Shown in pieces: positions 1 to 49,309 of a DNA stretch of 64,000 nt; positions within the stretch are counted from its first letter, which is position 1, and each line of letters begins with the position of its first letter. The stretch is from a virus: the IMG/VR virus record IMGVR_UViG_3300047499_000113, positions 124,001 to 188,000 of that record; one strand, given 5' to 3'. Position numbers and translations under genes: made by a program. The notes under the pieces are model-generated. The model was given only the letters and a program-made list of their open reading frames with translations, was not told the DNA's origin and did not search any database.

Positions 1-3000
1 CTCCCGGAGAGCCTTGTGGTCCGATCGGACCCGTAGGTCCGGTTGCACCCGTGACCCCAGGAGAGCCTTGCGACCCGACCGGGCCGGTAGCACCTGTTGG
101 TCCTATGTCACCAGTCGGTCCTTGAGGACCCGTGGCCCCTGTGACGCCAGGTGAGCCCTGCTCACCTTGGGGTCCAGTTGGACCCGTGGCTCCAGTGACT
201 CCATCAGCACCGGTAGCCCCTTGCGGACCGGTTGCACCCGTCGGCCCGATATCGCCAGTCGGACCTTGAGGACCTGTAGCGCCAGTAACTCCAGGAGATC
301 CCTGATCGCCTTGCGGACCGGTTGCACCCGTGACGCCGGGAGAACCTTGCGGCCCGATGGGGCCTGTAGCACCGGTGACGCCAGGTGAGCCCTGCGGTCC
401 TGTGGCGCCGGTTGCTCCGTCAGCTCCCGTTGCTCCTTGCGGCCCAGTTGCCCCGGTAACACCCGGTGAGCCTTGAGGACCTGTTGCTCCTGTAACGCCA
501 TCTACTCCGGTGGCTCCTTGAGGCCCGGTAGCACCGGTTGGGCCAATTTCTCCAGTTGGACCCTGCGGCCCAGTGGCGCCAGTCACCCCCGGTGAGCCCT
601 GATCGCCTTGCGGACCTGTCGGTCCAGTGGTGCCTGTCACACCATCGGCGCCAGTGGCTCCTTGTGGTCCGGTAGCGCCCGTGACTCCAGGAGACCCTTG
701 TTCACCTTGCGGGCCGGTCGCGCCCGTAGCACCGTCCGCTCCGGTCGCTCCTCGAGGACCGGTGGCGCCAGTCACACCATCAAAGCCAGTAGCACCCTGC
801 GGACCAGTCGCTCCGGTAACTCCCGGGCTGCCCTGATCGCCTTGCGTACCAGTTGCTCCCGTGGGCCCAATGTCTCCCGTGGGCCCTTGCGGTCCAGTCG
901 CTCCTGTAACGCCCGGCGAACCCTGCGGACCGAAGTCTCCAGTCGGGCCCTGAGGCCCGGTGGCTCCAGTTACACCATCTGCACCGGTCGGGCCCTGCGG
1001 ACCTGTGGCGCCCGTGGGACCGATATCGCCAGTTGGACCTTGTGGGCCGGTGGCTCCAGTGACTCCGGGTGACCCCTGCTCCCCTTGAGGCCCTGTCGCG
1101 CCCGTGACTCCATCAGCGCCCGTAGGACCCTGAGGACCAGTTGCTCCAGTCGGTCCAACATCACCAGTAGGACCCTGGGGACCTGTCGCGCCCGTAACTC
1201 CGGGTGAACCCTGATCACCTTGTGGACCCGTAGCACCCGTGACGCCATCAACTCCGGTAGCCCCTTGAGGTCCGGTGGCGCCGGTAACTCCATCGACACC
1301 TGTCGCGCCCTGAGGGCCTGTCGCCCCGGTAACGCCCGGCGAGCCTTGGTCTCCTTGCGGGCCGGTGGCTCCAGTAACTCCTGGGCTACCTTGATCGCCC
1401 TGCGGGCCCGTGGGACCGGTCGCGCCTGTGACACCGTCATTGCCCTGTGGTCCAGTGGCGCCCGTGGGTCCGATGTCACCAGTAGGCCCTTGAGGTCCTG
1501 TCGCGCCCGTAACTCCAGGAGATCCCTGGTCTCCCTGAGGACCCGTAGCGCCGGTCGCGCCATCAGGTCCAGTTGCACCCGTAAAGCCATCGGCACCAGT
1601 CGGTCCCTGTGGGCCAGTAGCTCCGGTGACTCCATCGGCACCCGTAGCCCCTTGTGGGCCGGTGGCTCCGGTGATACCCGGCGAGCCTTGATCACCTTGA
1701 GGCCCAGTTGGACCGGTGGCACCCGTGGCTCCGTCTGGACCCGTGGCTCCTGTGACTCCTGGAGATCCTTGATCGCCCTGGGGTCCAGTCGCTCCCGTAA
1801 CTCCGGGGGAACCCTGCGGTCCAGTCGCTCCTGTGGGACCAATATCACCAGTTGGTCCTTGGGGTCCTGTGGAGCCAGTAACCCCATCAGCTCCCGTCGC
1901 ACCTTGCGGTCCAGTTGCTCCGGTGACTCCGGGTGAACCTTGATCGCCTTGCGGACCTGTCGGACCGGTTGCCCCATCAGGTCCTGTGGCTCCCGTCACT
2001 CCCGGAGATCCCTGCTCACCCTGAGGGCCGGTCGCTCCCGTGACGCCATCGTTCCCCTGTGGACCGGTCGCTCCGGTCACACCAGGAGAGCCCTGATCGC
2101 CATGAGGCCCGGTGGCGCCCGTGATGCCTGGCGAGCCTTGAGGTCCTGTAGCGCCAGTTGGCCCTATATCGCCTGTCGGGCCATGCGGTCCAGTTGCACC
2201 CGTAACCCCCGGACTACCCTGATCGCCTTGAGGCCCTGTCGGACCGGTCGCGCCTGTAACTCCATCGGGGCCAGTGGCTCCGGTTGGACCGATATCACCG
2301 GTTGGACCTTGAGGACCCGTAGCGCCGGTCACACCTGGCGAGCCCTGATCGCCCTGTGGACCCGTGGCACCGGTCACGCCGTCCGGACCGGTGGCGCCCG
2401 TGACTCCATCGGCACCCGTTGGGCCTTCAGGCCCTGTGGCGCCAGTAACGCCATCAACTCCGGTGGCGCCCGTGACTCCAGGCGATCCTTGATCACCCTG
2501 CGGCCCAGTCGCACCGGTGACTCCATCAACACCAGTTGCGCCTTGTGGGCCAGTAGCGCCGGTGGGCCCAATATCACCAGTCGGACCCTGCGGTCCAGTT
2601 GCACCCGTAACACCATCGGCACCCGTGGAGCCCTGAGGTCCTGTAGAGCCGGTGACTCCATCTGCTCCTGTCGGACCTTGGGGTCCAGTTGCACCTGTGA
2701 GCCCAGGGCTGCCTTGGTCCCCCTGCGGCCCGGTCGGTCCCGTGGCTCCAGTCGGACCGACATCACCGGTTGGTCCTTGAGGTCCGGTTGCGCCCGTGAC
2801 TCCTGGCGAACCCTGATCACCTTGTGGGCCGGTGGCTCCGGTAACACCGTCAGCTCCAGTTGCACCTTGAGGTCCGGTAGCGCCCGTGACTCCGTCAACA
2901 CCAGTCGGTCCCTGCGGACCTGTTGCACCAGTAACCCCAGGAGAGCCCTGATCACCTTGTGGGCCAGTCGGTCCAGTGGCGCCTGTGACTCCGTCCGATC

Positions 3001-32190: not shown

Positions 32191-33081
32191 TCAGCGCGCG
32201 ACGATCAGGCGCACCAGGCCGCGGGGGTTGTACGCCCCGATGCCAAGGTTCTCGAACATTGAGAAACCTATTGTCCGCTCCTCGGGGTTGTCGGCCGAGA
32301 GAACCGTCAGCTCCGTGCGGACCGGGATGCGACCGAAGTGCTCCGGCTCACACGTGATGTAGACGACGCCGGCGGCGACGAGGCGGCTGACGATGAACTG
32401 GGCGTTCCAGCCCGTCGCCATCATGCCCGTCTTCCACAGCGTGGCCTGGCTCTCGATGTCGAGCACGTCGCGCCCGAACTTGCGGATGTCCGCGTAGTCG
32501 GTCGCGTTCATGTAGACGCGAGCGACGCGGAGGTCCTGCCGCTCGATCTCGGCGAACGCGTCCGCGAGAACGGCCGGAGAGATCGGAGCGATGACGGGGA
32601 CGTCGGGGTTGGTCTGCCCCGGCAGCTCGTCGAAGCCGTTGACGGCGAGCGCGTCCATGATGGAGAAGACGCGGTCGTCTTCTGCCGCCTGGACCTGCGC
32701 CTTGCCGAGGTCCTGCATACGCTTGAGGAGGTCGTACCGACGCTCCTTGATCTGCGTGAGCGGGGCCTTGGGCAGGGCGGCGATCTCGAAGAGCGGGAAG
32801 ATCACGCGCCGCGGCTTCATGACCGCGGTGATGCTCTCGCCCTCCTCACCGATGACGTACGCGGTGACATCCGGATCCTTGTCGTAGATCGGGAGAGCAC
32901 CGTCGGGCAGCTGCTCGACCAGGAAGGTCTTGCGACCCACGGACGAGTAGTCGCGCCGCTCGCGGAGCGGCTGGATCATGGACGCCGCGAGGCGCTTGCG
33001 ACCAGCCGAAGAGCCGATGAACTTGTCGACGACCTGCTCCTTGATCGTGTTGTCGACAACCTGAACGCCGAAGGGATTCAT
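32191..33081 (-). CDS. Probable major capsid protein (HK97-like)
   Basis: 296 residues. The N-terminal 45 residues are helical, then VEQLPDGALPIYDKDPDVTA, GEEGESITAVMKPRRVIFPL, LTQIKERRYDLLKRMQDL and the C-terminal ITCEPEHFGRIPVRTELTVL. This pattern matches the compact capsid proteins of some phages, where the 'LPxGA.p.YdkD.dv.AYvigeeG' block precedes the spine helix. Gene order supports it: portal, protease, scaffold-like, decoration-like, then this gene. It assembles the icosahedral head; the N-terminus may be trimmed by the prohead protease. A decoration role for this protein and capsid for the neighbour is the main alternative. Confidence 0.7.
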   Translation of the reverse strand: MNPFGVQVVDNTIKEQVVDKFIGSSAGRKRLAASMIQPLRERRDYSSVGRKTFLVEQLPDGALPIYDKDPDVTAYVIGEEGESITAVMKPRRVIFPLFEIAALPKAPLTQIKERRYDLLKRMQDLGKAQVQAAEDDRVFSIMDALAVNGFDELPGQTNPDVPVIAPISPAVLADAFAEIERQDLRVARVYMNATDYADIRKFGRDVLDIESQATLWKTGMMATGWNAQFIVSRLVAAGVVYITCEPEHFGRIPVRTELTVLSADNPEERTIGFSMFENLGIGAYNPRGLVRLIVAR

Positions 33082-34021: not shown

Positions 34022-35488
34022 TCACGGACGGTCCCAGAGGTTCTCCAGGGCCTGGTCGACCGACGCGGGCTTGCCGCGCTGGACCTGACCGATCTTCTTG
34101 GCGCCCTTCACGGAAGCCGTGCGGCCGACCGAGAAGTTGCCCATCTCGCGAGCGTGCTGCTCCTGCTCCGCAGCCTTGATCTGGCGCTGAGCCTGAACTT
34201 CCTCGTTGTCGCCGAAGAGGTTGTCCAGCTCGTCGCCATGCGAGGCCACGGCAGCCGCCGTGACGCCAGCCGGAGTCGCCTGGAGTTCGTCCTCCTCGTC
34301 GAAGGAGATGTCGGGCTGCGCACCCGTCGCGGTCGCCATCACCGGAGCGACAGGAGCCGCCGGTGCGGGAGCCGCCTCGAAGAGGGCCTGGAGGTCGTCG
34401 CCCGCGGGCACGCCCTGCTGACCCATCTCCTCCTTCAGCATCTGATCGAGCATCTGAAGCTCGGCAGGCGGAAGGTCGCCGCCCATGTGCGGCATGCCCA
34501 TCTCCTGCTGCTCCTCCTGCTCCTGGCCCTGCTGTTGCTGCTGGCCCATCATCGGATGCTGTGCCTGCTGCTCCTGCTGGCCCATCATCTGCTGCTGACC
34601 CTGCTGTTGCTGCTGGCCACGTTGCTGCTGCTGGCCCTGCTGCTCCTGCTGGGACTGCTGCTGCTGACCCTGCTGTTGCTGCTGCTGGGAGGTCTTGCCC
34701 TGCTGCTGCTCCTCCTCTTCCTCTTGCTGCTGCGCGACGCGAGCCGCAGCAACCTGCTTGAGGACAGACTTGAGGGTCGGGTCGTCGATCGTCATGATCG
34801 TCGACGCCAGCTGCTCGAGGGCCCGGTCAGCCGCCGACTCGCCGATGAGGAGAGCCGCAAGCTTGGTGCACGCCATCGCGCGGCGCGTCTTGTTCTCCGG
34901 CGTCAGCGCGTCGGGAGACACGGCGTCGAGGGCGCGGAGGGTCGAGACGACGACGCGGTCGGGCATCCCCATGAAGCCCATCGCCACTTCCTCGACGATC
35001 TTGTCGTTCGAGGTGCGCAGCATGGCACGGGTGATGCGCTCGACTGCCTTGGCCTTCTGCTCGGCCATGGCGCGCGGGTCAGCCGCAGTGGCAGGACGAC
35101 CAGCCGCCTCGTAGGTGCGACCAGCCTTCTCGCCCTGGGACTTGCCGGACGTGTTGCCCGAGAACGTCCCGGTGCCGTCCGGCTTGACGTTGTCGTACGT
35201 CCCCTTGCCCGAGTGCCAGTTGTCGGAGTCCTTGTGCTTGAAGGTGTTGTCGCGGAACTCGGCGAAGTTCAGCTCGTTCCGCTTGACGTGACCGCCCTCG
35301 TACTCCGCCTCGACATCACCGTAGCCGTGCCAGGACTCGGCCCAGCTGTCCGGGTCGCCCGACTCGTAGTCGGTCGGCTTGGGATCCGGGTGCTCCTGGT
35401 TCATCTTGTAGATGTCGGCTTGGCGTTGCGTCGCCGCCTGACGCGAGGTCGCGGCACCGTTGCCCTGCCAGGTGGAACGCGTACGCAT
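34022..35488 (-). CDS. Gln-rich scaffold-like protein
   Basis: 488 residues from ATG 35488, chosen for its AGGAG. Order: a charged N-terminal region; a helical domain (about 135-255, ERITRAMLRTSNDKIVEEVA); a Gln tract broken by Met, Gly and Glu (about 258-345); an acidic helical region; and a basic C-terminal helix (KGAKKIGQVQRGKPASVDQA). Scaffold proteins are typically placed between protease and capsid and use a basic C-terminus to touch the capsid; this gene has both features. Chaperone-like or internal virion function is the alternative. The Gln tract is built from recurring CTGCTGTTG-type units also found in two other genes. Confidence 0.7.
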   Translation of the reverse strand: MRTRSTWQGNGAATSRQAATQRQADIYKMNQEHPDPKPTDYESGDPDSWAESWHGYGDVEAEYEGGHVKRNELNFAEFRDNTFKHKDSDNWHSGKGTYDNVKPDGTGTFSGNTSGKSQGEKAGRTYEAAGRPATAADPRAMAEQKAKAVERITRAMLRTSNDKIVEEVAMGFMGMPDRVVVSTLRALDAVSPDALTPENKTRRAMACTKLAALLIGESAADRALEQLASTIMTIDDPTLKSVLKQVAAARVAQQQEEEEEQQQGKTSQQQQQQGQQQQSQQEQQGQQQQRGQQQQQGQQQMMGQQEQQAQHPMMGQQQQQGQEQEEQQEMGMPHMGGDLPPAELQMLDQMLKEEMGQQGVPAGDDLQALFEAAPAPAAPVAPVMATATGAQPDISFDEEDELQATPAGVTAAAVASHGDELDNLFGDNEEVQAQRQIKAAEQEQHAREMGNFSVGRTASVKGAKKIGQVQRGKPASVDQALENLWDRP

Positions 35489-35525
35489 GTGGGAGTCTCC
35501 TGCTTCTTGGTCTTCTATCAAGGTC

Positions 35526-38330
35526 CTAAAAATTGACTGACGCGATCCGACCCTTCCACTCGAGGAACCTGCGCTCCTGAGCGGTCAGCTCCCTACCAAC
35601 CTTCATCTTGCACGCAGCAATGAATGAGTTGGTTGTCGGGTAGCTGCTGGAAGGACCGGCTTGCATCACTGCTTTGTAGAGACTCGGCGGGTAGTTCCGG
35701 TCTCGGCATCGATCCTCGATCCATGAAAGGATTATCAGTTCACGAGGCGTCATGTTGGCGCGACGAATCGCTGCGATCCCGCCTTCGTGAACGGTCTTGT
35801 AAGCTTTCTCTGCCCACTGCACGAGACGCGGCGAAGAGCCGAACTTCTTGCGCAGAATGCGAGTGAAGTCCTGGCTCGAACGCACGAGACTGTCGTTGCC
35901 AGCCTCGAGATTGGCAGGCATTGGAGTCGCAGTGCCGACGTCCTCGGGTTTGGGAGCGAGCTTCTCCTCGAGCTTGTTGGTGATGCTGGTGAGCAATTGC
36001 TCTGTAATTTTATCCAGCATCCCATCAATTTTATCGGGCTTTGCCTTTGCCGGCTTGCTCGGCTCCTTGCCGCCCTGGTCCTGCTCGCCCTGACCGCCCT
36101 GACCTTGGTCCTGACCGCCCTGCTCTTCGGCTTGGTCAGCGCCGCCGCCTTGTTGCGACTCGTCCGCACCGCCCTGCTGGCCGCCCTGTCCGCCCTGGTC
36201 CTGACCGCCGAACACGTCGTCGAACGACTGCTCTTCCTGGCCCTGCTGGGCGCGGCGCTGCACGGAGGCGGCCTTCTTGATGCCGTCCATCTCCGGGATT
36301 TGCTGCCGCAGTTCGTAGACGTACTTGGACGCTTGCATCTGCGACGAGACGGCGCTCGCGTCCGGGTTCAGGATGTTGCGCCGCACAGCTCCACGAAACG
36401 CCGGGTTGCGGACCCACGACGCCTCGATGAACTGGTTGGAGTTGGGAACTGAAACGTGACCGATGACTTCAGCGAGGATTTGCTCTCGCCCAGTCTCGTC
36501 GATGAACGTTGAGAGCTTGCCATCGTAGAGGACGCACGGGCAAAGCTGCGCATCGTCCGCGGCCACGTTGCCGCACTTCGTGCAAGCAGTGAACAGCGAA
36601 ATGCAATTCGAAACTCCGACGCCGTTGGCGACGTAAGAGTGATCCCCGTCGACTTGGAGGTCATATACGAATCCCTGGTACTCGGAACGGACGACCTTCT
36701 TGATCTCCGAGTAGACGTACTTGTCGGTGATCCAGCGGCTGTTGCGACCCGCTTGAGTAGACTTGATCCCGGCGAGCGCAGACCGCACCTTGACCGACGG
36801 AACTCGGACCACGTCCGAATTGCGAAGTTTGATCTGGTAGTCCACGCCGGCCGCACCATGGAGCAGCCTTGTCCCCGGTCTCTCCACGGCAGAGAAGGTC
36901 GGGACTATCCCGCAGCGAGCTGCAAGCTGCATGTACTGATGGGCGAGCTTCAGGTTGCGGGTGCTGAGGAAGACATTCTTTGTCCCACGCTTGCTCGTCG
37001 AAACGCACCCATCGGAGTCGATGAGGCCCGACAAGAACGCCATTTGGTGTTCCCGCGGCCAGCTCATGATAGTCTTGCCGATAAGTTTTTCGGACGAGTT
37101 CCTGCCGGAAACGTGGGAGTCCACGAGCCTGCGGAAGGCTCGAGAAGTGTTCGTAATATAAGCCGCACCTCGGCGACTCGAACGGGACGTGCTTTGGGGC
37201 TTGATGGGCGCACCTCCGACAGCCATATGATATTCGCGCGCAGCCCAAGCTACTTGGTCGAGTGAGCGAATAGCATCTTCGACGATCTCGGGGTGAGACT
37301 CGTCCAGGCAGAACCCAACGCCAACCGTGGAGTCGTGCGTGTACTCGAACTTCCAGCCATCCCCAACCCAAAGCCCGAGAAGACGAGCTTCGGTAAGGGA
37401 AACGTCCGCTTCCAGGGTGTCCTGGGAGATGGGGAAAGCGAGGAAGTCCCCGACGCGCGCAGTCCCGGCTTCGGCGTAGTCGAACGCGTAGTCCTTCTCC
37501 ACAACACGAGGCTTGGATTTGTGGCCGCAGCCGCTGCGAGTTCGGACCATATCCAACGTCTCGCGGCGGACGATGTAGTAGTTGTGATTATCGGTCGAGG
37601 TGACAGGAGGAAGCCCGACCGCCTTGATAGTCTGAACATTCCAACGATTCTCGCGGATCTGCAGGTTGTCGACGCGCCGGGAATTCCCCTTCTGCGTCAT
37701 GACCTCCATACCCGGGCGGACGTCCTCGATGTTTATCGGACTGCCGTCCGACAGGTAAACGAGGGTTCCAGGGACATGGCAGCCCATGCTCAGGCCCGTG
37801 ATGGCGCCCGAGAGGATGTCCGACACGAGCTGGTTGTGCTTGCGGTCGGTCGCGACGAGGATGTCGATGTAGCAGCTGTTGCCGAGATCACGCGCGATGG
37901 CGTCGACGATGAAGCCCTTCGACAGCTCGGGGAGCTGGATGTGCTCGAGGTAGTTGTGCGCGCCGATGAAGGTCCGGTAGGTCGCCAGAAGGAGCGAACG
38001 CTCCCACGCATCACCGTTGTTGTTGATGATGTTGTGGCACTCGGGCTTGATGCGGAACTCAGGCCACCGGACGTCGATCTGGCAGCCGCGGTTCATCAGC
38101 CGGCCGGTCTTGACACCCTTAGGGGCGTAGGTGTCGACCGAAGCGACGATGGTCGCATGCGACAGCAGGTACTGCTTCGGGTCGCACTTGCGCAGGATCG
38201 TCTTGGCCGTGCGGTGCACGAAGTCCTTCGGAACTGCGCCCTCGTGCTGGTCGCGCAGCTCTTCCATCCACTCGTCGAAGGCGATGTTCCGACGAGAAAC
38301 GATGGCGTGGGCGTACCTTCTCTTGGCCAT
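35526..38330 (-). CDS. Prohead protease interrupted by an intein
   Basis: 934 residues before splicing. N-extein 1-183: the protease start, with TYRTFIGAHNYLEHIQLPEL (His 125/130) and GAITGLSMG, where S181 is the likely nucleophile. Intein 184-575. C-extein 576-about 660: C-I-S-L-F, then a CxxC zinc-like knuckle (C583, C586, C597, C599) and IGHVSVPNSNQFIEASWVRN, NPAFRGAVRRNI. After splicing this reads as a T4 gp21/HK97-type protease, which trims scaffold and capsid proteins. A Gly/Gln-rich linker (about 695-765) and a helical C-terminal domain follow. GAGG lies close to the ATG. Position between the portal and the scaffold-like gene fits. Confidence 0.85.
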   Translation of the reverse strand: MAKRRYAHAIVSRRNIAFDEWMEELRDQHEGAVPKDFVHRTAKTILRKCDPKQYLLSHATIVASVDTYAPKGVKTGRLMNRGCQIDVRWPEFRIKPECHNIINNNGDAWERSLLLATYRTFIGAHNYLEHIQLPELSKGFIVDAIARDLGNSCYIDILVATDRKHNQLVSDILSGAITGLSMGCHVPGTLVYLSDGSPINIEDVRPGMEVMTQKGNSRRVDNLQIRENRWNVQTIKAVGLPPVTSTDNHNYYIVRRETLDMVRTRSGCGHKSKPRVVEKDYAFDYAEAGTARVGDFLAFPISQDTLEADVSLTEARLLGLWVGDGWKFEYTHDSTVGVGFCLDESHPEIVEDAIRSLDQVAWAAREYHMAVGGAPIKPQSTSRSSRRGAAYITNTSRAFRRLVDSHVSGRNSSEKLIGKTIMSWPREHQMAFLSGLIDSDGCVSTSKRGTKNVFLSTRNLKLAHQYMQLAARCGIVPTFSAVERPGTRLLHGAAGVDYQIKLRNSDVVRVPSVKVRSALAGIKSTQAGRNSRWITDKYVYSEIKKVVRSEYQGFVYDLQVDGDHSYVANGVGVSNCISLFTACTKCGNVAADDAQLCPCVLYDGKLSTFIDETGREQILAEVIGHVSVPNSNQFIEASWVRNPAFRGAVRRNILNPDASAVSSQMQASKYVYELRQQIPEMDGIKKAASVQRRAQQGQEEQSFDDVFGGQDQGGQGGQQGGADESQQGGGADQAEEQGGQDQGQGGQGEQDQGGKEPSKPAKAKPDKIDGMLDKITEQLLTSITNKLEEKLAPKPEDVGTATPMPANLEAGNDSLVRSSQDFTRILRKKFGSSPRLVQWAEKAYKTVHEGGIAAIRRANMTPRELIILSWIEDRCRDRNYPPSLYKAVMQAGPSSSYPTTNSFIAACKMKVGRELTAQERRFLEWKGRIASVNF
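36606..37781 (-). mobile_element. Intein with LAGLIDADG homing endonuclease
   Basis: 392 residues. Cys1 starts the splicing block (CHVPGTLVYLSDGSPINIED); TSTDNHNYYIV is block B with its His. The endonuclease core has two LAGLIDADG helices: LLGLWVGDG and FLSGLIDSDG. The C-terminal blocks are VYDLQVDGDHSYVANG and VGVSN, then +1 Cys. The residue before the final Asn is Ser rather than the usual His. The element sits exactly after SMG of the protease active-site motif. Confidence 0.95.
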
Positions 38331-41475: not shown

Positions 41476-44139
41476 CTACCACTTGATGTCGGATGGGTCG
41501 ATGGTGACGGCTGCCTTCTTCTTGCCGAAGGGAGGCGCCTTCTTGCCGCCAAACGGCGGGGCCTTCTTGCCACCGAACGGGGGCTTCTTGCCGCCCTTGC
41601 CGCCCTTGGCCTTGTCGCCGCCCTTCGCGAAGGGATTGGGCTTGTCGCCCTTCTTGCCCTTCTTCTTGGCCTTGTCCTTCTTGCGCTGCTCCTTCTTCTT
41701 CTTTTTCTTGCCGGCGGCGAGGATGATCGGCAGGAGCACCGGGCGGGCCTCCGGGTTGGCATGCGCGAGGCGAACGAGCGTGCTCATCGCCACCACGACG
41801 CTGCCGGTCTTGACGCCCTTGGCAGCCTGCTCGGCCTCCGAGAAGAGCGCGTCCATGCCCTCCATGAACTTCTCGATGTCGTTCTCCTGGAAGAGCTTCT
41901 TGGCTTCCGCCTTCTGCTTGTCGAGGAACGCCTTGACCTGCTCCTCGTCCATATCCTCGAGCGGCTCGAGGTCCATGATGGCGCCGGTCTGCTGCTCCTG
42001 ACCCTGCTGTTGCTGCTGACCCTGCTGTTGCTGTTGCTCTTGGGCAACGCGGGCAGTGCGGCCGGACGCGGTCTTCTTCAGAAGTTCGTCCATCTCCGTC
42101 AGACCATCGACGAAGTCCTCGATAGACTGCGCGTCGACGACCTGCTTGAGGTGGTTCTTGAGATCCTTGATGTCGACCTTGCCCTCGACAAAGTCGTCCA
42201 TGTCTTTGTCGTGGATCTGGCTCTGCTGCTGTTGCTGGCCCTGGACAGGGCCGCCAGCGGCCGGCGGAGGAGGCGGAGGAGCCATGCCGGGCGGGCCAGC
42301 CTCGGGCATGCACTGCTCGCCCTGCTGTTGCTGCTGACCCTGCTGCTCCTGCGAGCACATCTCCTGCTGCGAGTGGTGGGAGCCTTCCTGCTGCTCCTCT
42401 TCCTGCTCTTCCTCCTGCTGGGAGGTCTTGCCCTGCTGCTCCTCTTCCTCCTGCTGTTGCTCTTGCTGCTGAGCAACCATGGAGCGAAGGTTCTTCACGA
42501 TCTCGAGCGCCGCACGAGGGTCCGTCTTCCGCAGGTTGCTCGCAACCCGCAGGATGTTTTGGTAGTGGACATTGCTCATGGCGGAAGCTCTCCTCGATTT
42601 CGTGCTGTCGTCGTTCGTGATCAGGGTCTCAGAAAACACGTCAACCTTGTCGCCCATCAGGCGAGCAAGCAGCATGTTGTACGTCTCGCCGTCGATCTTG
42701 CCCTGGTAGAGATTGCTGTCGGCCAGGTGGATCGACAGGTCAAGCGCGGCGCGGAACGGTGCATCTTTGGCACCTGACTCCCACTCGAACTTGAGCCAAT
42801 CCTCCTGAAGCAGGTCCTTGGCGTGGGCAACGATGGAGTCGTAGTGCTCCTTGCCGAAGTACCGCTTGTCGATCGACTGGTATCCCTTGTACGGCCCGTT
42901 GGTCGGGTCGCCCTGCTGACGGACACCGTGATAGGTTGCAGTCTTCTGGCCCATAGCCTTACCTCGGAGGGCTCCATAAGAAGTTGCTGCACTCCTGTAC
43001 CCCTCGACCATCTTCTTGAGGGGCTCCGGAGCTTTCTTGAAGTCGTCCCCGAAGAAGCTCTCTATCCCATCGACAAATTCCCCAGGGTCGAAGACAGGGT
43101 CATCATCGTCCTTGAAGAACGACTTGAGGCTCTTCTGGACCTCGTCGTAGTATTCGCTGGCAGTGATGGTCTCGGGGTCGTCGTCTCCCTTGGCGAACTC
43201 GTGAATGGCCTTCTCCCACGATTTCATGAAGGTGGAGACAGCCAGGAGCTTCTGCATCTCGCCGTAGACCCGCTCGGTCTCCTTGTCGATATCGGCGACA
43301 AGATCTGCGGCATCCACCCGGATGGGATTGTCAAGTAGGGATCTGTAGGCGGCAACGAGGGTGGCAAGCTCGGTCCTGTCCTCCAGACTCTCCTCGCTGA
43401 TCTTGCCTTCGCTGGCCTCCTTGAGAACGTCCTCGAGGAGATTGGCACCTTTCTTCTTGTTGCCGGCCTCTCGAAGAGCTGTGGCTTTGATCGATGCCGG
43501 AGCCTTGAGGCTCTTGACCGACTCTTGGAGGGCTGCCAGCACGCCCGCCCGAGTAGCCCAATTGTTGGGCTTGTCGTTCGGCCACAGTGCCGCCACTTCG
43601 GCAGCGATTTCAGCTGGAGTACCTTTGAACTTCGTGTTCGCGGTCTTCTCGTAAATGCCGATGAGTTTCTTCATCCGGCCGACGAGGTCTTTCTGCGCGT
43701 CGAGCATCACCTTGTGCTGGTTGCCCTTGCCCTTTCCGGGCTTGCCGACCTTCGCCAGAGCCACTTGCGCGTAGTTCTTGCGGGCAAAGTCGTCGAACGC
43801 GTCCTGCAATTTCATCGATTGCAGGCCCAAGAGATGACTGAACTTATTGATCAGGCGATGAGCTTCCTCGCCCGGACCCGCGGGAGGCTGATGGCCTTCT
43901 TCCTCCTCTGTATCTGCCGCGACACGGGCCGCGATGTAGAAGAGTCGCGACGCCTGCGTCTTGCGCGACAGGTCCTTGTCAGTGGTTTCCTTGTCCGTGT
44001 GGTCCTTCATCCGGCGCCGGCGATTGTCATGCTTCGGCGCCCCACGACCCTTCGGCTTCCTACTCGGAGCAGGTTCCTTGTCGATCAGGCGTTCAATTTG
44101 CCTGTCGTCCTTCTCGGCAGGGGTCAGATCCGTGGGCAT
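41476..44139 (-). CDS. 887-residue Gln-rich head protein with basic tail
   Basis: Residues 1-60 are basic. RLFYIAARVAA (65-75) is a clear copy of the recurrent motif. A long helical region follows, then about 555-650 is a Gln/Glu-rich tract and a Pro-rich patch. Near residue 790 the motif VRLAHANPEARPVLLPII matches the end of the 324-residue protein. The last 80 residues are Lys/Gly/Pro-rich with repeats of PPFGGKKA. ATG 42579 (residue 521, MSNVHYQNILRVAS) has GGAGAG about 9 bases upstream, so a shorter internal product is possible. The basic tail may touch DNA. Position between portal and protease suggests an internal head or scaffold protein. Confidence 0.8.
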   Translation of the reverse strand: MPTDLTPAEKDDRQIERLIDKEPAPSRKPKGRGAPKHDNRRRRMKDHTDKETTDKDLSRKTQASRLFYIAARVAADTEEEEGHQPPAGPGEEAHRLINKFSHLLGLQSMKLQDAFDDFARKNYAQVALAKVGKPGKGKGNQHKVMLDAQKDLVGRMKKLIGIYEKTANTKFKGTPAEIAAEVAALWPNDKPNNWATRAGVLAALQESVKSLKAPASIKATALREAGNKKKGANLLEDVLKEASEGKISEESLEDRTELATLVAAYRSLLDNPIRVDAADLVADIDKETERVYGEMQKLLAVSTFMKSWEKAIHEFAKGDDDPETITASEYYDEVQKSLKSFFKDDDDPVFDPGEFVDGIESFFGDDFKKAPEPLKKMVEGYRSAATSYGALRGKAMGQKTATYHGVRQQGDPTNGPYKGYQSIDKRYFGKEHYDSIVAHAKDLLQEDWLKFEWESGAKDAPFRAALDLSIHLADSNLYQGKIDGETYNMLLARLMGDKVDVFSETLITNDDSTKSRRASAMSNVHYQNILRVASNLRKTDPRAALEIVKNLRSMVAQQQEQQQEEEEQQGKTSQQEEEQEEEQQEGSHHSQQEMCSQEQQGQQQQQGEQCMPEAGPPGMAPPPPPPAAGGPVQGQQQQQSQIHDKDMDDFVEGKVDIKDLKNHLKQVVDAQSIEDFVDGLTEMDELLKKTASGRTARVAQEQQQQQGQQQQQGQEQQTGAIMDLEPLEDMDEEQVKAFLDKQKAEAKKLFQENDIEKFMEGMDALFSEAEQAAKGVKTGSVVVAMSTLVRLAHANPEARPVLLPIILAAGKKKKKKEQRKKDKAKKKGKKGDKPNPFAKGGDKAKGGKGGKKPPFGGKKAPPFGGKKAPPFGKKKAAVTIDPSDIKW

Positions 44140-44177: not shown

Positions 44178-45971
44178 CTACTTCTCGCCCTCACCGCCGC
44201 CGAACCTGTCGCCCTTCTTCTTGGATAGTTTCAGTCCGGCAGCCGTGGCGACCTTCTCGAGGATATCAGTCTCCTCGAGGGCTTCCTCACCAGCCTTGGT
44301 CATGACGGTGCGCAGGAATTCATTGAAGTTGGCGTCATTCGGCGTGAACATATCGCGCTTGAGCTGCGCCAAAGTCTCGTCTGCGTCGATGTTGAGCAGC
44401 TCGAGGATGAACGAAATCGGCAACGACCCCTTGTTGTAGAGGTTGAACATGAAGTCCTGCAGCTCCGAGTTGTCACGCAGCGCAAGGCGCGTGAACTGGA
44501 GCTTGGGGTAAAGCAGGACTCGGTTGCCGTAGTCGTCCTCCTCCCAAAACCCCTTCTTCTCGGCGACCGGAGCAAACAAATAATCCTCGACGAATTGCGC
44601 GAGCGTCTCGCGATACAGCAGGTACATCGTGTTCATCACGTCGAGATGAATACGCTCGCCTGAATAAGTCGACTCTCCGGTGAGCATCGACTCGGTGATG
44701 CGCAGACCGATGAACAGAAGCTTGTTGGTGATTTCGTACTCGGTTCCGAGATCGAGGAGACGGTCGCGCGAGCCGACCTCGTCCCAGTGGACCTCGAAGT
44801 TCATGATGATGCTGAAGTCGGGGTCGATGAGCGCCTGGTCGATCTGGTCGCGCAGGTTCTCGACGTCCGGCTCCGACATCTTGTCGGCCCAAATGACGCG
44901 CTTGGGCGTCATCGCGCGCGATGCAATGGACGTCTGCGCCTGGCGCAGCTTGTCCTGATAGAGCAGAGTCCGCAGGCAGCGCTCGAGAATCGAGATGCCG
45001 CGGTCGTCGTAGGATGACTTCTTGTGCGTCAGGTGATAGCAGAAGGACGAGCACAGGAAGTCGTCATAGGGCGACGTGTTGAGCGGGATGGGCTGCCCGC
45101 TCAGGAGATTCTCACGGATCTGCTCCGGGATGTCCTCGGCAATCCGTGCAGACTCATCATCGTGCTGCTCTTGCGCCTTCATGACGACGATTCGGTCCTT
45201 CTCGGACGGAATCAGTTCCATCTTGGCGCGATTGGTATACTGGAAAACCTCGAGCTTGACCTGCTCCGGTGGAAGAATCTGGAGGCGCTCCCAGCCCCGG
45301 TAATTCTTGGCGACGTGCTCTCGAATGGCCTTGACTCGCTCGGTCTCGGGCTTGAGCGACTTCTTGCGTTCAATCTTGGTCTTCGCGCGGCCGGCGTAGT
45401 CAACCTCTCCAACTTCCTCTTCCTTGACGTCCGAGATCATCTCTTCGGTGATCTCTTCAGTCAGGTCGTGGTCCTCACAGAAGATGAAGACGTTGCCGTG
45501 CAGCCAGTATTCGTGCGTGGCATCGTAGAGCGTCTGGAACAGGCGAACCCGCTTGCACATCTGCTCGTAGAAGTGCAGGATGCGCTTGTTGCGGTCCAGA
45601 TCCTTGCCTTTCGGGAGCGAAAGACGGATCTTGGACATCGGCACATCGGTGTGAAAGTCGATGGCCGCGCCGACGATGGGGTGCGTGACGTACCAGAACC
45701 GAAACAGCTCGCGCTTTTCGCGCTCGGACTGCGGCAGCTCGAGGAAGTCGGTAGAAAGCTGCGGGCTGTAGAAGGCGGAGTCCGCGTTCGATATGGCTCC
45801 GCCGCCAGCATTGCCGAAGGTACCGCCGTACGCGGCGACACGGATGGACTGCGCCTGCTCCCGGCGAGCGAGCCTCTCGAGCTTCGTCAGCTTCTGTTTG
45901 GAGCCATTCTGCTGGTCAACAGAGTTGACCGGCATCGGGGGAGTGACTCCAACTTTCGGTTTCTTCGCCAT
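44178..45971 (-). CDS. Portal protein
   Basis: 597 residues. The opening (LTKLERLARREQAQSIRVAA) is followed by a portal-like core: FRFWYVTHPIVGAAIDFHTD, RVRLFQTLYDATHEYWLHGN, WERLQILPPEQVKLEVFQYT, SILERCLRTLLYQDKLRQAQ and GLRITESMLTGES. The last 80 residues form a helical C-terminus. Portals are dodecameric rings through which DNA enters the head. It lies just downstream of TerL in the usual order. Shine-Dalgarno GAGAGC near the ATG. No frameshift seen. Confidence 0.9.
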   Translation of the reverse strand: MAKKPKVGVTPPMPVNSVDQQNGSKQKLTKLERLARREQAQSIRVAAYGGTFGNAGGGAISNADSAFYSPQLSTDFLELPQSEREKRELFRFWYVTHPIVGAAIDFHTDVPMSKIRLSLPKGKDLDRNKRILHFYEQMCKRVRLFQTLYDATHEYWLHGNVFIFCEDHDLTEEITEEMISDVKEEEVGEVDYAGRAKTKIERKKSLKPETERVKAIREHVAKNYRGWERLQILPPEQVKLEVFQYTNRAKMELIPSEKDRIVVMKAQEQHDDESARIAEDIPEQIRENLLSGQPIPLNTSPYDDFLCSSFCYHLTHKKSSYDDRGISILERCLRTLLYQDKLRQAQTSIASRAMTPKRVIWADKMSEPDVENLRDQIDQALIDPDFSIIMNFEVHWDEVGSRDRLLDLGTEYEITNKLLFIGLRITESMLTGESTYSGERIHLDVMNTMYLLYRETLAQFVEDYLFAPVAEKKGFWEEDDYGNRVLLYPKLQFTRLALRDNSELQDFMFNLYNKGSLPISFILELLNIDADETLAQLKRDMFTPNDANFNEFLRTVMTKAGEEALEETDILEKVATAAGLKLSKKKGDRFGGGEGEK

Positions 45972-46757: not shown

Positions 46758-48707
46758 TCAGCGGGGTCTTGTCCGTGGGACACGTCGCATGGACGCTCCG
46801 CCTCCGTGCATGCGGTCCCGCATCCGGTGATAGTGATGATACCCGTACGTCGGCACCCGTGACGAAGGCGCCGGGGCGAGGATCGTTCCGGCCGTCAGGA
46901 GGGACGGGTTGTCCTTGACATACTCGTTGGCAAGTGCGACCGAACGGACGAGGGCGTCCGACTGGTCGTCGTGCTTGCCCGCGATCTTTGGCGCCTCGAC
47001 GATGATGATGTTCTTTCCACCCGACGTCGACTGCAGCTCAAGCAGCTCGGAGATGAGCGGGGAATGCTTGCTGCCGTCCCACAGTTTGGTCTCGTCAGCC
47101 TGAGGAATCGGGTAGTCGTACAAGGCGAGCTGTTTGTAGTACATGCTCATCTTGAACCCGTGATACATCTGCGACGAGTCCATAGTCGAGAAGTTGCGCT
47201 GCTCGAATTGGATGAGATGGCGCTTGTGCAGCACTTGTTCGAAGATGGGGCCCGCCCACTGGTCGAACACTCCCTTGATGATGTAGAACCTTCTCGAGAG
47301 TGCGAAGAACCAATCAGCAATGGCTTCGATGTCGAGCCTCGCCTGATCCTGGAGAGTCATGGCGTACGGCACCATCGGCGACGGCAAGTGAGGATTGCAC
47401 TCCGCCCATTTCTTCTTCGGATACCACACCTCGTGGTAAGCCAGCTCTATCCTGCCCGAGTTGACACGAGTCAGAGCGATGGCGGTGCCGTCGCCCGAGA
47501 GACCGAAGTCGACGCCCGCCCAGTGGGGCTCGCGCGGAATGCCAACTTGCTTGGGCCGCAGGTCGGGAACGATGCAAGCCTGAAGGTCCCGGGCGTCCTC
47601 GATGAAACCGCGGACGCGGTCCGAGAACTGAGCGCCGTGCTCCGTCATGAAGCCAGCGGGATCCTTGGCGTACTCCTCCTCGTAGTAGCTCTTGGGAAGG
47701 TCCGGGCGGATTTCCCACGTCGGCGCCTGGATCATGAGCATGTTGCGCGACTCGGGTCCGCCCGTCAGGCTCATCTCGTACTGCTTGTAGAAGAAACCCT
47801 CTCGCGCGTCGGGCGACGAGATGAGAATCATGCGGCCTTCGGTATCACCGACCGCCTTGCGGGTCTTCTTGTCCTTCTTGGCGAACTGCGCGATGGAGGG
47901 CTTGATGGCCTTGTACACGCGTTCGGCCGAGCTTTTGCCGTTGTCGACGAAGAATGCGATCTCGTCGAGAATTGCGCAAATGATACCACGACCGCGGAGA
48001 CCCTTGGCGATGGATGATTTGAACGTCGCCGTAATGGTGCCCTTGCCCTCAGGGCCGAACTTCTTGCGGTCATTTTCCGTTCGGAAGCGCAAGAACGTTT
48101 GCGTGTCGTGCGCCACTGACGACTTGAAGTAGTCGATGGCCTGGATGTGGCCCTGGATGTCGTTGTAGACGATCGACGCCTGCTCTTTGTCGTTCGCGAT
48201 GTCGAGGATACGAATTTCGGAGCCCGGCGGCATGCCGTAGTAAGCCTGCGGGTGCCCGCGCTTGAGGAGCTTGTACAGCTCGTACGCCGCGAAGACGGCC
48301 GAGAGCGCGCTCTTACCAGAACGGCGGCCGAGGATGAGGACCAGCTCGCGGCGCTCTCTCCCGTCCTGCTCGCGGATGTTGCATCGCTTGTTGTCGAACA
48401 GGTACTGAAGGTATTCCTTCTCGGTCAGTTCGAGCTTGATCGCGTCGCCGTACCTGTCGGTGATCTTGATGCACTTCTCGGTGTCGTCGAGCGGGATGTT
48501 GTAGTACAGCTTGATGATGAAGCGCTGCGCGGGGAAAAGCCCGTCCGGGAAGAGCTTGAACCGGTCGATGAATTCGAGAATATTGAGGAACTCAACATCG
48601 CCTTCAGTGTCCGACTTCTGCTGACTGCCTTGCTTCCGCTTCCTGGCGATGAAGCCAGACACCTCTGCAGTCAGCTCGCTCTTGAATACAGGCTCGCGCG
48701 TCGGCAT
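46758..48707 (-). CDS. terL: Terminase large subunit
   Basis: 649 residues from ATG 48707, 2 bases after the upstream stop. ATPase: Walker A variant GRRSGKS (127-133) and Walker B IICAILDE (D248, E249). Nuclease: GVDFGLSGDGTA (D400) and a late acidic site (KHDDQSDALVRS). TerL pumps DNA into the prohead and cuts concatemers. The C-terminus is basic and Pro/Arg-rich. Gene order (TerS-like, TerL, small genes, portal) is standard. Confidence 0.95.
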   Translation of the reverse strand: MPTREPVFKSELTAEVSGFIARKRKQGSQQKSDTEGDVEFLNILEFIDRFKLFPDGLFPAQRFIIKLYYNIPLDDTEKCIKITDRYGDAIKLELTEKEYLQYLFDNKRCNIREQDGRERRELVLILGRRSGKSALSAVFAAYELYKLLKRGHPQAYYGMPPGSEIRILDIANDKEQASIVYNDIQGHIQAIDYFKSSVAHDTQTFLRFRTENDRKKFGPEGKGTITATFKSSIAKGLRGRGIICAILDEIAFFVDNGKSSAERVYKAIKPSIAQFAKKDKKTRKAVGDTEGRMILISSPDAREGFFYKQYEMSLTGGPESRNMLMIQAPTWEIRPDLPKSYYEEEYAKDPAGFMTEHGAQFSDRVRGFIEDARDLQACIVPDLRPKQVGIPREPHWAGVDFGLSGDGTAIALTRVNSGRIELAYHEVWYPKKKWAECNPHLPSPMVPYAMTLQDQARLDIEAIADWFFALSRRFYIIKGVFDQWAGPIFEQVLHKRHLIQFEQRNFSTMDSSQMYHGFKMSMYYKQLALYDYPIPQADETKLWDGSKHSPLISELLELQSTSGGKNIIIVEAPKIAGKHDDQSDALVRSVALANEYVKDNPSLLTAGTILAPAPSSRVPTYGYHHYHRMRDRMHGGGASMRRVPRTRPR

Positions 48708-48709
48708 GA

Positions 48710-49309
48710 TTACACCGCTTCCGAAATGCGCTTCTCCCACTCGGCCATGTCAGCCTCTATCTGTCGAAAGACCAGGTCGATGTCGTTGTCGGCAACGCCG
48801 GCTTTCTGCATGGCCTCGTGAATGAACTCGAGCCATTGGTGGATGACCTTCTTGAACTCCGGGCTCCTGAAGTCCATCCGCTCTTGGCGGTTGTTCTCCT
48901 GGCGCTTGAGAAGCACATCGGCCAGGTTCCGGAGCATGGAGATGCGGGCGATAGTGTGCTGGACGGTGGGCTTGCCCTCCTTGGTAGCCTTGCGACGTTC
49001 GAATTTGAGGTGGGCGAGTTCTTCAGTGATCTCCTGGATGGCCAGTTCGATCATCTCGCCAGTGGCGCCACGGCGCGTAGCCGCTTGCACCAGTTCCTGG
49101 CGCCTGACGTAGTCCTCGCGCTCCCGAAGCTCCTGCTCGGCTGCTTTCGGGTCGATGACTTCCGGGGTCGGAACGTTCCCGCTCGGGCCGACGATGACCC
49201 CGCTCATGCCGATTTCGCCGGTGTTGATCTTCTTCCCACCGGGGAGGACGAGAAGTTTGCCTTTAGGCTCGTCCTTCTTGTCTTTGTCCTTGTCCTCGGT
49301 GTCGTCCAT
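48710..49309 (-). CDS. Possible terminase small subunit
   Basis: 199 residues directly upstream of TerL. A charged N-terminus with a Gly-rich stretch (GGKKINTGEIGMSGVIVGP), then mainly helical (ELVQAATRRGATGEMIELAI; HTIARISMLRNLADVLLKRQ). Small terminases are helical, oligomeric and located here; sequence similarity is not visible, so the call rests on position. TAAAGT lies 6 bases before the ATG. Confidence 0.55.
   Translation of the reverse strand: MDDTEDKDKDKKDEPKGKLLVLPGGKKINTGEIGMSGVIVGPSGNVPTPEVIDPKAAEQELREREDYVRRQELVQAATRRGATGEMIELAIQEITEELAHLKFERRKATKEGKPTVQHTIARISMLRNLADVLLKRQENNRQERMDFRSPEFKKVIHQWLEFIHEAMQKAGVADNDIDLVFRQIEADMAEWEKRISEAV

Follow-up and report, generated by a model that had tools for sequence, protein, structure and literature searches.

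An insert at the active site of a head protease

What is a 392-residue insert doing three residues past the catalytic serine, Ser181, of a phage protease? The question is raised by one open reading frame of the window, the 64,000-nucleotide stretch of DNA analyzed here, which is a portion of a 240-kb virus record. A sequence-only reading had placed an intein of 392 residues at 36606-37781, directly after the S-M-G that includes Ser181, and its coordinates, length and residues all proved to be exact (Table 1). Judged by sequence, a chance origin of the insert can be excluded, because it is an open, in-frame stretch of 392 codons with all motifs correctly spaced, and because other contigs have related inteins at this codon and a gene identical to the window ORF is found on an independent 111-kb contig (L003).

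Table 1. Features of the precursor gene and of neighboring head genes in the window. Single residues are numbered along the precursor, except for Cys1 and Asn392, which are numbered along the intein.
Feature	Position	Strand	Basis or remarks
Precursor ORF, prohead (head maturation) protease with intein	35526..38330	-	934 aa; ATG start, GAGGA upstream
N-extein, residues 1-183, C-terminal GLSMG	37782..38330	-	empty-site relatives
Intein, residues 184-575, 392 aa, Cys1 to Asn392	36606..37781	-	motifs, family matches, fold match of 184..575 to whole inteins
C-extein, residues 576-934 and stop codon	35526..36605	-	opens with CISLFTACTKCGN (Cys cluster), then FIEASWVRNPAF, Gln/Gly-rich tail
Ser181 of SMG, proposed nucleophile	37788..37790	-	invariant in 60-sequence alignment; protease fold
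His130 of HNYLEH, proposed catalytic His	37941..37943	-	invariant in 60-sequence alignment
+1 Cys codon (Cys576)	36603..36605	-	directly after intein
Block A, CHVPGT, includes Cys1	37764..37781	-	motif reading
Block B, TSTDNH (TxxH)	37584..37601	-	T246 and H249 invariant in alignment A4
First LAGLIDADG motif, LLGLWVGDG	37356..37382	-	motif reading
Second LAGLIDADG motif, FLSGLIDSDG	37008..37037	-	motif reading and family match
Block F, FVYDLQVDGDHSY (Asp F:4 and His; VYDLQV..DHSY)	36633..36671	-	motif reading and family match
Block G, ANGVGVSN then +1 Cys; penultimate Ser574	36603..36629	-	motif reading and family match
Terminase large subunit	46758..48740	-	phrog_2, 3.3e-26
Portal protein	44178..45971	-	phrog_16240, 2e-26
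Major head protein	32191..33081	-	phrog_2522, 2.7e-46
Gln-rich 499-aa downstream neighbor, scaffold-like by position only	34022..35521	-	no PHROG match

Anatomy and predicted splicing of the intein

The insert carries the class 1 nucleophile set, namely Cys184 at position 1, the terminal Asn575 and Cys576 at +1, together with the block B TxxH (TDNH) and the block F Asp and His (VYDL, DHSY) of this class. The usual class 1 penultimate His is missing, with Ser574 in its place; this His is not strictly defining. In family searches, the intein matched Pfam LAGLIDADG_3 (1.4e-13, over the curated cut-off) and Hom_end (22.9 bits against a cut-off of 21.1), as well as the NCBIfam model TIGR01443 intein_Cterm (26.8 bits against a cut-off of 15.6). 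The AlphaFold model of the precursor had a mean pLDDT of 71.3 overall and was weak in the protease part. Residues 184-575 of this model align end to end with solved LAGLIDADG-bearing inteins, with Z-scores of 29.8 for both 7qsu and 2cw7 (TliVMA, PI-PkoII) and of 22-25 for PI-SceI, and Foldseek gave E-values as low as 3.5e-20 for this part. Within it, residues 307-521 match I-DmoI (Z 17), showing an alpha-beta fold with two LAGLIDADG motifs and their acidic residues; the full endonuclease that had been read from the letters is thus borne out.

Very probably, the insert is a class 1 intein that encodes a homing endonuclease with two LAGLIDADG motifs. It lies at the SMG/C junction of a large tailed phage's prohead protease gene, and it is predicted to splice and to be excised before the protease acts. 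According to the mechanism we propose, a thioester formed at Cys1 would be transferred to Cys+1, after which cyclization of Asn392 would leave the exteins ligated as GLSMGCISLF. Such self-splicing would restore the active-site loop ahead of head maturation by the protease. BIL and Hedgehog domains were also among the Hint fold matches, as might be seen if the insert were an intein-like Hint domain that only cleaves, with the two fragments assembling as a split protease. We consider this extremely improbable, given that the insert has the full class 1 splicing residue set including the +1 Cys, and that the joined exteins are exactly colinear with the empty alleles described below.

Host protein and its gene neighborhood

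The host had been named a prohead protease, and this identification is supported by a protein family match, the fold of an intein-less homologue, and the order of the head genes. Both the exteins and all 60 of the intein-less relatives that were scanned match phrog_18299 ('head maturation protease'). Invariant residues in the alignment of 60 sequences include the N[YF]xEH His and the SMG Ser. For the empty homologue L066, the AlphaFold model (mean pLDDT 83.8) gave Z-scores of up to 11.5 against herpesvirus capsid proteases and of 9.4 against the T4 capsid assembly protease gp21 (5jbl), whereas the next unrelated fold, MlaD, scored well under these at 6.8. For the protease, Foldseek alone found only weakly similar structures (best E 0.088), but a second look with VIA-align was clear. 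Likewise, no PDB sequence was matched in a profile search with the extein, where the fold comparison succeeded; a PDB sequence match to Tako8 was rejected as a repeat artefact. The L066 model supports the view that the host protein is a caudoviricete prohead protease with the T4 gp21/herpesvirus assemblin fold. T4 gp21 and the herpesvirus proteases resemble the spliced protein in fold, but they have no intein and their sequence identity to it is very low.

In the window, the genes follow the order TerL, portal, protease and major head, and this local order agrees with that of Tunturiibacter phage Tunturi_5. The module also encodes two long, Gln-rich, low-complexity proteins without a PHROG match (34022-35521 and 41476-44139, both on the minus strand), and the C-terminus of the protease is similarly rich in Gln and Gly.

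Empty and differently filled alleles

The sequence-only reading had asked for intein-less relatives with matching exteins, and several were found: L004/L064, L066/L143, L005/L084 and L006/L058 lack the intein and are colinear over the junction. The empty alleles (L066/L143, L004/L064, L005, L006 and others) read GLSMGCISLFTxCxxCGN, and GLSMGCISLF is uninterrupted even in relatives with 91-92% extein-core identity (L066/L143, L004/L064). A Cys follows SMG in 79 of 80 empty alleles. Furthermore, in L158, whose extein is 88% identical to that of the window, the codon is occupied by another intein, one with 44% identity. In other words, the site is empty, filled or otherwise filled among near relatives, and these alleles, all within about 90% identity, form a natural system in which to test homing and any effect of splicing rate on head maturation. 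Pupper and Finch were also considered as carriers of a site intein and were rejected, since their translations contain none.

An insertion hotspot in the protease gene

Inteins are as a rule inserted beside catalytic or active-site motifs (PMC7765530, PMC5050341). By scanning for the pattern SMGC..PGT and for the exteins, we gathered 26 inteins at this site, so that the SMG/C junction in environmental phages holds no fewer than 26 distinct inteins, which fall into several separate lineages. About a third of the pattern matches were out-of-frame chance matches and were set aside (L016-L018, L020, L025, L027, L031, L033, L036, L047, L049, L050, L055 and L056). In a scan ranked on the N-extein only, and hence blind to the site, an SMG/C intein was present in 12 of 79 loci, 10 of them called automatically and two, L158 and L216, recognized from a reading of their sequences. 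Each of the 26 inteins has Cys as its first and Asn as its last residue, followed by Cys at +1. In the intein tree, the window's own SMG/C clade comprises nine rows (support 100/99) and another comprises 12 (97/94); L021 and L030 form a clade (100/100), L054 groups with the intein of Eggerthella phage LE2-3 (100/99), and L038 and L043 each stand alone. These clades are separate and well supported, without a resolved deep order.

Besides SMG/C, the protease gene has four further intein sites: NNN/SDAWERS (L028, L083 and L085), N[YF]/CEH beside the catalytic His (L037, L102 and L141), xL/C or EM/C in the Cys cluster (L014 and L048), and SMGLN/C (LE2-3). We regard this recurrent hotspot, with five insertion sites in the one gene flanking both catalytic residues and several lineages at one codon, as more interesting than the new insertion site itself. 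Two genes (L014:11426-13210 and L048:1734-3752) carry two inteins each, one at SMG/C and the other in the Cys cluster, about 20 extein residues further on. At SMG/C, the inteins of L037 (134 aa) and L140 (133 aa) have no endonuclease, and these mini-inteins are candidates for compact splicing tools.

Why has one codon been chosen so often? Extreme DNA conservation may be the reason at some sites only. The NNN/xDAW and NY/xEH sites lie in highly conserved DNA (ranks 9 and 19 of 223), whereas this explanation is unsupported at SQL/CPC (rank 95) and at SMG/C, where the 24-bp DNA window is average in conservation (rank 121). Therefore, the choice of SMG/C by several lineages is not explained by DNA conservation alone. 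Its reuse may instead reflect a constraint at the protein level, namely an essential active site that tolerates exact loss only, combined with the near-invariant +1 Cys. An intein would then be kept at the site because imprecise loss would break the active site, and because the almost invariant Cys would provide the +1 nucleophile.

Mobility and selection

Across the 96 sequences of the extein tree, we counted at least 15 presence/absence changes. Per 100 bp, the inteins of L015 and L053 share 86-100% identity (median about 96%), whereas their flanks are mostly 50-85% identical (upstream mostly 50-60%, protease coding 63-86%), and the edges are sharp. In addition, dS is 0.15 in the intein, whereas synonymous sites of the extein are saturated. 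Near-identical inteins in divergent flanks point to a recent horizontal transfer in this pair. The endonuclease is under purifying selection in the relatives, with dN/dS of 0.06-0.11 in three pairs. The presence/absence changes, the L015/L053 pattern and the low dN/dS are consistent with homing, in which the endonuclease would cut the empty protease alleles of co-infecting phages and the intein would then be copied in.

For the window copy itself, we infer splicing, DNA cleavage and homing. The window intein is 77% identical to those of its nearest relatives, L015 and L053, and its extein 78-80% identical to theirs; since the two are about equally diverged, there is no sign of recent transfer. 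This is what vertical descent would produce, and it would suit a decaying intein that is still competent to splice, whose endonuclease is dead and which the window lineage has passed on vertically. Some relatives do have altered motifs (SNG in L023; PEA, with a penultimate Gly, in L216). However, both LAGLIDADG motifs of the window copy retain their acidic residues, and dN/dS is low among the relatives, so we judge such decay to be very unlikely.

Splicing as a timer of head maturation

The sequence-only reading had suggested that the penultimate Ser may slow C-terminal cleavage and that splicing could time capsid maturation. Neither idea is supported. The penultimate residue is Ser in 14 of the 26 site inteins (His in 10, Gly and Lys in one each), and published phage inteins that lack the His splice readily (PMC5050341). 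The Mja KlbA intein has Ser at G:6 and is functional (PMC4031507). Mycobacteriophage inteins often have Gly, Lys or Ser in place of the penultimate His, and splicing of the RDF intein became much slower when its Gly was changed to His (PMC5050341). A penultimate Ser is thus common and does not by itself indicate slow splicing.

In its stronger form, the timing idea makes the intein a kinetic or conditional lock: the precursor would be a zymogen without activity, and head maturation would be timed by splicing that zinc, redox state or assembly slows or triggers. The position three residues past the nucleophile and beside the invariant Cys cluster, the recurrence of separate intein lineages at the same codon, and the retention of the site by the two mini-inteins would all suit such a lock. 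However, relatives at 91-92% identity do without an intein, its presence is patchy, and near relatives carry different, unrelated inteins at the codon. The purifying selection on the endonucleases is expected under homing. We therefore think a lock very unlikely. There is a similarly slight chance that large phages offer inteins a privileged niche at the active site of the prohead protease, where splicing would keep the protease inactive until late infection and independent lineages would be retained as a maturation timer.

Relation to known inteins

PI-SceI (the yeast VMA1 intein) and the archaeal VMA and Pol inteins (PI-PfuI, TliVMA and PI-PkoII) likewise combine a Hint domain with a nested two-motif LAGLIDADG endonuclease, and they align end to end with the window intein (Z 21-30). 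The window intein differs from them in host protein, insertion site and penultimate Ser, and the identity is about 15-22%. The class 1 inteins of mycobacteriophages (TerL, RDF, portal and TOPRIM) are also phage-borne, patchy and located beside conserved motifs, again often with the penultimate His replaced (PMC5050341); in contrast, Table 1 of that survey lists no head protease as a host.

Annotated phages are in line with the view that terminases and polymerases are commoner hosts of phage inteins; among 50,697 phage records, the queries used found a protease intein in LE2-3 only. Its orf71 (L009) also has an intein beside the catalytic Ser of a head protease, but two residues later (SMGLN/C), with a penultimate His, and in a different clade. 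This gene (L009:2854-5967) was deposited as 'tRNA synthetase' and is a head protease with an intein; such genes are misnamed by annotation pipelines. Searches of the literature, exclusive of subscription papers and supplements, brought up no earlier description of a prohead protease with an intein. The element is of a known kind and lies at an apparently new insertion site, and a protease of the structural module joins the list of intein hosts.

Two further inteins, one of them apparent, were noted. Outside the window, the same virus carries a second LAGLIDADG intein in its ribonucleotide reductase (G000:C1:200914-201507, L002), inserted at RASNP/C and ending VAHN/CSEFLHVDNTACNL. In an Escherichia phage P1 isolate (OP279344.1; L217:1294-4083), the dmt gene, annotated just as Dmt, has an apparent LAGLIDADG-type intein at the Pro-Cys motif of the cytosine methylase, with the junctions GTP/CFTAGH...VVHN/CQAFS.
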